Source: Halorubrum coriense DSM 10284
GTDB lineage: Archaea > Halobacteriota > Halobacteria > Halobacteriales > Haloferacaceae
Length of the DNA stretch: 48,322 nucleotides
Direction of reading: 5' to 3'
Assembly (NCBI RefSeq): GCF_000337035.1
Contig: NZ_AOJL01000024.1
Span: 1-48,322, forward strand
The first letter of the stretch is position 1; the number at the start of each line of letters is the position of its first letter. Made by a program: the position numbers and the translations under genes. Shown here piece after piece: positions 34,959 to 37,001 of the stretch. Under the pieces are notes generated by a model. It had not been told where the DNA came from. It ran no database searches and saw only the letters and a list, made by a program, of their open reading frames with translations.

Positions 34959-36182
34959 TCAGTACTGGTAATTGATGACCTGCTCGTCCTCCTTGTCGGC
35001 GTCTTGGAGCTTGTCGCGGGCCTGCTCGAAGTCCTCCTGCGCCACCTCGGTGCGACCGTCGCGGATGGCGAACATCCCGGCTTCGGTCGCCAGCGACGCG
35101 ATGTCCGCGCCGCTGTACCCGTCGAGGTCGGCGGCGACGACGCCGAGGTCGATGTCGGCCGCGACGTTCATGTCCTGCGTGTGGATCTCGAGGATGCGCT
35201 CGCGGCCCTCGGGGCCGGGCTCGGGCACCTCGATGAGCCGGTCGAAGCGGCCCGGGCGCAGGATCGCCTCGTCGAGCATGTCGAAGCGGTTGGTCGCGGC
35301 CATGATCCGGATCTCGCCGCGGTCGTCGAAACCGTCCATCTCCGAGAGCAGCTGCATCATCGTCCGCTGGACCTCGGCGTCGCCCGAGGTCTTCGAGTCG
35401 GTCCGCTTGGCGGCGACGGCGTCGATCTCGTCGATGAAGATGACGGCGGGCTCGCGCTCGGCAGCGAGCTCGAAGAGGTCGCGGACGAGCCGCGCGCCCT
35501 CGCCGATGAACTTCCGGACGAGCTCCGAGCCGGCCATCTTGATGAACGTCGCGTCCGACTCGTTGGCGACGGCCTTCGCGAGCATCGTCTTCCCGGTGCC
35601 CGGCGGACCGTGAAGCAGGACGCCGCTCGGCGGTTCGACGCCGACTTTCTCGAACTGCTCGGGGTTTTCGAGGGGGTCTTCGACGGCCTCGCGGACCTCG
35701 CGGATCTGGTCGTCGATGCCGCCGATGTCGGCGTACTCGACGTCCGGGGACTCGGTGACCTCCATCGCCTGCGCTCGCGAGTCGGTCTCGTCGTCGAGCA
35801 CCTGCTGGACCGCGAAGGAGTCGTTGATCGCGACGCGGTCGCCGGGGCGGAGGTCCTCGTCGAGGCGCGTGGCGGCCTGCGTGAGGACCTCCTGGTTGTT
35901 GCCGTGCTGTTTGATAACGACGCCGTCGTCGGTGATCTCTTCGACCGACGCGATGTACAGCGAGGAGGTCTTCAGCACCTCGTTCTCGCGTTTCAGCTGC
36001 TCGACGTCGTCTTTCAGATCGCCGCGGCGACCCTCGGCGTCCGCGAGCCGGGTTTCCAGTTCCTCGTTCACCTGGACGATCCGTCGGAAGTGCTGGCGGA
36101 TCGCCTCCAGCCGCTCCGCGTCGCTCATCTCCGGGTCGAGCTCCAACCGCGGGCGGTCGGGCAGTGAGGGGCTGTGAGACAT
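34959..36182 (-). CDS. pan: Proteasome-activating nucleotidase (PAN)
   Basis: This 407-residue AAA ATPase forms the hexamer that unfolds proteins and feeds them into the 20S proteasome. An N-terminal coiled coil (about 25-75), an OB domain (75-140) and the AAA domain follow. Walker A is GPPGTGKT, Walker B is FIDEIDAV, and the second region of homology is ATNRFDMLDEAILRPGRFDR. The C-terminus ends NYQY; a canonical HbYX tail would need Tyr as the second-last residue, which here is Gln. A minus-strand CATTTACG element lies about 31 bases upstream of ATG 36182. Confidence 0.96.
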   Translation of the reverse strand: MSHSPSLPDRPRLELDPEMSDAERLEAIRQHFRRIVQVNEELETRLADAEGRRGDLKDDVEQLKRENEVLKTSSLYIASVEEITDDGVVIKQHGNNQEVLTQAATRLDEDLRPGDRVAINDSFAVQQVLDDETDSRAQAMEVTESPDVEYADIGGIDDQIREVREAVEDPLENPEQFEKVGVEPPSGVLLHGPPGTGKTMLAKAVANESDATFIKMAGSELVRKFIGEGARLVRDLFELAAEREPAVIFIDEIDAVAAKRTDSKTSGDAEVQRTMMQLLSEMDGFDDRGEIRIMAATNRFDMLDEAILRPGRFDRLIEVPEPGPEGRERILEIHTQDMNVAADIDLGVVAADLDGYSGADIASLATEAGMFAIRDGRTEVAQEDFEQARDKLQDADKEDEQVINYQY

Positions 36183-36336
36183 TCGTTGTGCGGGATAGGA
36201 TGCGGGCGTAAATGTGCCTTTGGGTCACGGAGAGACCGTTGGATCGGCGAGACGAGCGAGCGCCCGTCCGCGCCGCGAAGCGCGCGACGACCGCGTGCGT
36301 CGCGACGGTATCAGCGCTGATAAACGGGTGTCAACG

Positions 36337-36343
36337 TTTTAAA
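36337..36343 (+). promoter_or_regulatory. TATA box upstream of the leader ORF and response regulator
   Basis: TTTTAAA is centred 27 bases before ATG 36367, the start of a 26-codon ORF, and 104 bases before the response-regulator ATG. The main transcript is therefore expected to start at 36367 and to carry the regulator gene as a second cistron. Confidence 0.55.
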
Positions 36344-36366
36344 CCGGGGCGAACGGACGACAGCGT

Positions 36367-36447
36367 ATGGACGCACGAACGGCGGGCGGCCGCGCCGGTC
36401 CGGCGCTCGCAGATCGCGAGACGAGGACCCGGAGGCCCCTCCGATGA
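36367..36447 (+). CDS. Predicted 26-residue leader ORF overlapping the HalX regulator start
   Basis: The ATG at 36367 lies exactly where transcription is predicted to begin (27 bases from the TATA centre), so it could be translated as a leaderless cistron. The frame runs 26 codons, giving an Arg-rich peptide beginning MDARTAGGRAG, and stops at TGA 36445-36447, overlapping the regulator ATG as ATGA. A Shine-Dalgarno-like GGAGG (36431-36435) lies 8 bases before the regulator ATG. The peptide matches no family I know and contains rarer AGG codons, so translation is inferred only. Confidence 0.42.
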   Translation: MDARTAGGRAGPALADRETRTRRPLR

Positions 36448-37001
36448 CGGAAACTCCGGACGCGACCGTGCTCGCGGTCGACGACGAGCCGGACCTCGCG
36501 GAACTGTACCGGGTCTACCTCGACTCGGCCTACGACGTTCGGATCGCGACGGGCGGCGACGAGGCGATCGACCTGATGGACGACGAGGTCGACGTGGTCC
36601 TCTTGGACCGCCGGATGCCCGACATGTCGGGCCACGAGGTGTTAGACGAGATCCGCGGCGAGGGGTACGACGCCCGCGTGGCGATGCTGACCGCGGTCGA
36701 GCCCGACGTCGACATCGTCGAGATGCCGTTCGACGACTACAAGACGAAGCCCGTCACCAAAGAGGACCTGCTCACGCTCGTGGAGGTGCTCCTCCACCGC
36801 GCCGCCTTCGACGAGCGGAGCCAGGAGTTCTTCGCGCTAGCCTCGAAGAAGGCCGCGCTGGAGGCCGCCGGCACGACCAACTCCGACGAGTACGAGGAGC
36901 TCATCGACCGGATGGAGGCCGTCCGCCTCGAAGTCGACGACACGCTCGATCACCTCTCCGCGCGGGACGCGTTCGTCGAGGTCCCCGGAAAAGTCCCGTA
37001 A
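36444..37001 (+). CDS. Response regulator with HalX domain
   Basis: This 185-residue two-component protein has a receiver domain (1-115) and a C-terminal HalX helical domain (about 120-185). The receiver has the acidic pair DDEPD (13-14), phosphoacceptor Asp55 in LLDRRMPDMSG, the Thr of MLTA and the Lys in YKTKP. HalX is restricted largely to haloarchaea and is thought to pass the signal to partner proteins, as it is not a known DNA-binding fold. No histidine kinase is adjacent. GGAGG 8 bases before the ATG indicates a leadered message, consistent with the upstream ORF. Divergent from pan across 261 bases. Confidence 0.9.
   Translation: MTETPDATVLAVDDEPDLAELYRVYLDSAYDVRIATGGDEAIDLMDDEVDVVLLDRRMPDMSGHEVLDEIRGEGYDARVAMLTAVEPDVDIVEMPFDDYKTKPVTKEDLLTLVEVLLHRAAFDERSQEFFALASKKAALEAAGTTNSDEYEELIDRMEAVRLEVDDTLDHLSARDAFVEVPGKVP

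Follow-up and report, generated by a model that had tools for sequence, protein, structure and literature searches.

What does a 26-codon open reading frame (ORF) do when it sits at the predicted 5' end of a signalling gene's message and closes on that gene's start codon? The locus that raises this question lies in the window, here the whole analysed stretch of 48,322 nucleotides from Halorubrum coriense DSM 10284, and encodes a HalX-type response regulator, a member of a family without known output function (PMC5847659). Because most haloarchaeal mRNAs are leaderless, it is poorly known how the yield of one message is tuned by its 5' end. The reading that best accounts for the data, to which we give a probability of roughly three in four, is that a leaderless upstream ORF feeds ribosomes to HalX by termination-reinitiation. 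The parts of the locus are as follows, in window coordinates.

34959-36182, minus strand: divergent neighbour, a proteasome-activating (PAN-type) AAA ATPase (Pfam AAA, AAA_lid_3, Prot_ATP_ID_OB_C).
36309-36322, no strand assigned: palindrome TATCAGCGCTGATA, which agrees with the CsmR motif TATCA(N4)TGATA of the literature and is predicted to serve this promoter as operator/UAS.
36337-36343, plus strand: TATA box TTTTAAA.
36367-36447, plus strand: predicted leaderless upstream ORF of 26 codons, stop included.
36431-36435, plus strand: GGAGG, Shine-Dalgarno-like, inside the upstream ORF and clade-specific.
36444-36447, plus strand: ATGA, the stop/start overlap of the upstream ORF and the HalX gene.
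36444-37001, plus strand: HalX-type response regulator (REC-HalX) of 185 amino acids (Pfam Response_reg, HalX).

The upstream ORF, with ATG at 36367-36369 and TGA at 36445-36447, would encode MDARTAGGRAGPALADRETRTRRPLR. A preliminary description made from the letters alone had placed the TATA box, the 26-codon frame, its overlap with the ATG at 36444 and the GGAGG 8 bases 5' of that ATG, and all of these positions are correct to the base. It had also named the downstream gene a HalX response regulator, which Pfam bears out, with Response_reg (2.7e-18) and HalX (1.9e-15) both above cut-off.

A HalX search of 97 genomes, complemented by region fetches, yielded 51 same-genus orthologues (L001-L050 and L054) from 52 same-genus genomes, that of the window being counted among them; one genome (G010) was without a close match. 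The group is Halorubrum by its named records, one record being labelled Halobellus captivus. Within the genus the PAN gene marks the locus, adjoining HalX in all 51 loci, and none of 35 PAN genes from other genera has a HalX gene upstream within about 1.7 kb. Two orthologues are unusual in themselves. In L038, from G027, the HalX match begins at residue 28 (near position 1498), a short deletion apparently shifts the start frame, and the gene is perhaps broken or misread. In L054 (1504-1824, from G014) only residues 8-114 match, in a longer open frame whose C-terminal part differs.

The geometry of the promoter indicates where the message would begin. Measured from the putative leaderless ATG, the first base of the best TATA-like hexamer falls at -30 in 43 orthologues and between -29 and -32 in all 51, so that every locus has an ATG about 30 nt past the first T of the box, and the spacing expected of a leaderless transcript, with TATA some 26-30 nt before the start codon, is found in 51/51. 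A looser TATA pattern precedes the upstream ORF in 48/49 loci and the HalX start in 0/49. The earlier prediction that the mRNA begins at 36367 thereby gains support from every orthologue. Data from Haloferax volcanii, where 72% of protein-coding transcripts are leaderless, make a transcript start on the first codon the usual case (PMC4983044).

The ORF that would open this message is widely retained. An upstream ORF that begins with ATG and closes over the HalX start is present in 49/51 orthologues, a figure inflated by the fact that ORFs were chosen by their closure at the HalX start, a bias that touches the 51/51 for promoter spacing to a lesser degree. The preliminary description had said that its idea would fall if relatives did not keep the ATG/TGA frame; they do keep it, with exactly 26 codons and ATGA in 40 of the 51. 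The nine remaining ORFs measure 22, 24, 25, 25, 27, 28, 39, 41 and 45 codons. By the analyst's own count, six of seven independent length changes preserve the frame (binomial P 0.007), and the seventh still leaves the stop 8-11 bases inside HalX; in L045 and L048 a one-base frame shift puts the stop at +5 and +8 past the HalX start. The overlap or near-contact of stop and start that is typical of coupled pairs occurs in 49/51, mostly as ATGA. Three loci (L023, L030 and L031) carry lengthened ORFs of 41, 45 and 39 codons that have kept their closure at the HalX start. As a control for chance, 448 kb of the same genome were scanned; among the 335 genes that a script predicted there, 9 have a comparable upstream ORF; two of these are HalX genes, leaving 7/333. 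The upstream ORF is thus beyond chance expectation, since 7 of 333 other genes have one as against 49 of 51 orthologues.

An alternative is that the 77 bases between the predicted mRNA start and HalX are an ordinary untranslated leader, with HalX initiated de novo and the 5'-terminal ATG incidental. In its favour, the window has GGAGG 8 bases before the HalX ATG; the motif recurs, however, in only 15/40 orthologues, all in the window's clade, which sets aside the Shine-Dalgarno sequence as a conserved element and limits to one clade what the preliminary description had noted as a property of the locus. An ATG at the leaderless position in 51/51 further argues against this explanation, as does the finding that de novo starts are not supported by Shine-Dalgarno motifs in H. 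volcanii (PMC6728339), and we regard an untranslated leader as very improbable.

A second question is whether selection acts on the peptide, as it would if the ORF specified a small functional protein that is co-produced with HalX and, for instance, partners or inhibits it. Codon-position counts were made on 38 sequences, with L038 and L054 left out. Parsimony changes at positions 1/2/3 number 127/127/138 over codons 2-26 of the upstream ORF versus 25/18/96 in HalX, so that third positions of the ORF show no excess in these 38 sequences (138 of 392, P 0.23). The signal of purifying selection is confined to codons 2-6, with changes of 10/11/22 (P 0.012) and pN/pS of 0.26-0.38 in three clades, compared with 0.87-0.95 for codons 13-25. 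Specifically, Arg4 of the M-x-x-R start is kept in 46/49 peptides through five different Arg codons. This constrained start favours a small protein, as does the observation that overlapping pairs often link partners (PMC10666635). Against it stand the absent third-position excess, the near-neutral codons 13-25, the tolerance of lengths from 22 to 45 codons and two natural losses of the ORF, so that a small protein seems unlikely. Conservation of the peptide as the main constraint is not supported over codons 2-26, although codons 2-6 look constrained, which lends a role of the peptide some weight against the ribosome-delivery reading. The Arg-rich peptide of the preliminary description likewise does not hold as a conserved trait, with net charge across orthologues running from -3 to +6.

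The constrained first codons, together with the signalling function of the downstream gene, would also suit an ORF that acts as a sensor, in which stalling caused by the nascent chain or by particular codons alters ribosome flow to HalX in the manner of an attenuator. In mycobacteria, leaderless short ORFs with poly-cysteine runs precede genes and exert codon-specific attenuation; the present ORF resembles them in being a leaderless short ORF ahead of a gene and differs in that the orthologue peptides show no comparable, conserved run of one codon. Neither is there a shared RNA fold: the consensus of 22 sequences reaches -0.55 kcal/mol with 4 pairs, and six of seven single-sequence folds are no better than shuffles, the exception being L003 (z -2.33). 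On these sequences RNA structure is set aside as the conserved element, and an attenuator-like sensor has, in our estimate, about the same small chance as the small protein.

Comparison of the orthologues thus shows a promoter geometry, retention of the ORF, its closure at the overlap and a near-neutral peptide. That evolution has preserved the start, the stop and the length but little of the peptide suggests that the ORF delivers ribosomes to HalX. Under termination-reinitiation, the mRNA would begin at the ATG of the 26-codon ORF, transcribed from the promoter of the HalX gene; a ribosome would start on the 5'-terminal AUG, read the short ORF, halt at UGA and reinitiate on the overlapping HalX AUG. 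Selection would keep start, stop and the distance between them and leave the peptide mostly free to vary. HalX protein would then come only from ribosomes that had passed through the upstream ORF, which may set or damp its dose. Apart from the Arg-richness and the GGAGG, the interpretation first offered for this locus, a leaderless leader ORF coupled to the regulator, is supported at the level of sequence comparison.

Known systems offer several parallels, each with limits. Strict coupling is known for the ATGA pairs of H. volcanii, where 9/9 tested pairs need upstream translation and the Shine-Dalgarno motif is helpful rather than essential (PMC6728339). The HalX locus shares the 4-base overlap and, as we infer, the dependence of the downstream gene on upstream translation; the upstream ORFs of those pairs are native genes, whereas here a mostly neutral peptide is encoded by 26 codons at the predicted mRNA 5' end. 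Other uORFs of H. volcanii are similar in being haloarchaeal, 15-31 codons long and placed before a normal gene, but they lie within 5'-UTRs of 150-250 nt and have low isoelectric points, unlike an ORF at the predicted mRNA start that overlaps its gene (PMC4983044). The uPPE2-ppe2 AUGA pair of Mycobacterium tuberculosis combines a short out-of-frame uORF with an overlap and a downstream gene that requires it, as would be the case here, yet it is riboswitch-controlled, leadered and bacterial (PMC11260477). In Corynebacterium glutamicum, a leaderless promoter, a short fore-cistron and then the target gene form a similar bicistronic design, which is engineered and reportedly needs a Shine-Dalgarno motif (PMC10367133). 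A review describes short uORFs whose function is to bring ribosomes to the gene that follows (PMC12548453), and the present case fits that class, with the difference of place that this ORF would open a leaderless message. No report of an upstream ORF of HalX genes was found in the literature searched, which covered few subscription papers.

Two species have dispensed with the ORF. In L020 (H. salsamenti) and L024 it is absent, and the HalX ATG occupies exactly the place of the lost ATG, at -30 from the TATA box; the two fall into separate clades of a HalX + PAN tree, judged by topology alone. Most of the relatives compared carry ATGAG at both starts, the pattern expected of a deletion between short repeats. 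The absence in 2/51 indicates that the upstream ORF is not indispensable, yet 49/51 retain it. A conserved uORF together with natural deletions in two species thereby provides a ready test of reinitiation as a means of archaeal dose control.

The promoter furthermore bears a palindrome, TATC-N6-GATA at 36309-36322, and nowhere else in the window does TATCN6GATA occur, the number expected by chance being 0.00. Of the 51 orthologues, 40 match it at best in 8/8 positions, 9 in 7/8 and 2 in 6/8; counted from the leaderless ATG, the 49 loci with at least 7/8 have it starting at -58 in 43 cases and at -57 or -59 in the others. Genome-wide, this assembly has 32 such sites versus 5 for a reversed control, and the combination of palindrome, TATA and ATG on both strands of four genomes occurs 10, 12, 10 and 5 times versus 0, 1, 0 and 0 for the control. 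The motif TATCA(N4)TGATA was described for CsmR of H. volcanii, in 50/65 peaks and upstream of BRE and TATA, with ChIP in H. volcanii only (PMC13286277); a match lies here just upstream of BRE/TATA at a conserved position. Since the palindrome matches the CsmR motif, this HalX gene can be predicted to belong to the targets of CsmR. Among the genes that follow the palindrome are those for a type IV pilin, for transducers of the chemotaxis type and, scoring below the Pfam cut-off, for a DUF7521-like protein; in 6/6 Halorubrum genomes the first archaellin gene likewise has the box before it, with at least 7 of 8 positions matching. The CsmR-type site, as a prediction, suggests a place for the HalX regulator in the motility network.

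How far does the arrangement extend among HalX genes? Two Halorubrum paralogue groups have a short upstream ORF in all 22 loci examined (L134, L135 and L203-L222), which in 15 loci has 12 codons, opens with GTG and ends at +5, and in 7 has 15 codons; those of L135 and L205 were read by eye, the L135 gene also being found by script. Among the five HalX-like genes of this genome, the more distant L136 and L137 have none. In other genera, 10/23 HalX loci have an upstream ORF (7 by script, 3 more by eye). An unselected set from five genomes gives 6/19 HalX genes versus 2/30 TrmB-family genes (one-sided P 0.03), and 6/19 compares with 7/333 ordinary genes at P 1.5e-5, although genes that overlap were filtered in the latter scan and its limits differed slightly. 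The upstream ORF is common among HalX genes and not universal; a family-wide rule holds only in part, given 6/19, 10/23 and the two genes without one. A broader proposal, tentative and in our view somewhat short of even odds, is that haloarchaeal HalX genes have repeatedly come under tiny leaderless uORFs whose length is fixed within each subfamily, at 26, 12 and 15 codons in Halorubrum and at other values elsewhere. They would form a natural archaeal bicistronic device for dose control, selected for length and closure rather than for the peptide, and at this locus the CsmR motility regulon would drive it.

A second HalX paralogue, L135 (1501-2025; G000 C60 224483-225007), which has a 15-codon upstream ORF, lies a few kb from archaellin genes (G000 C60 220350-221539), and a DUF7521-like gene carrying the palindrome is also within a few kb of it.
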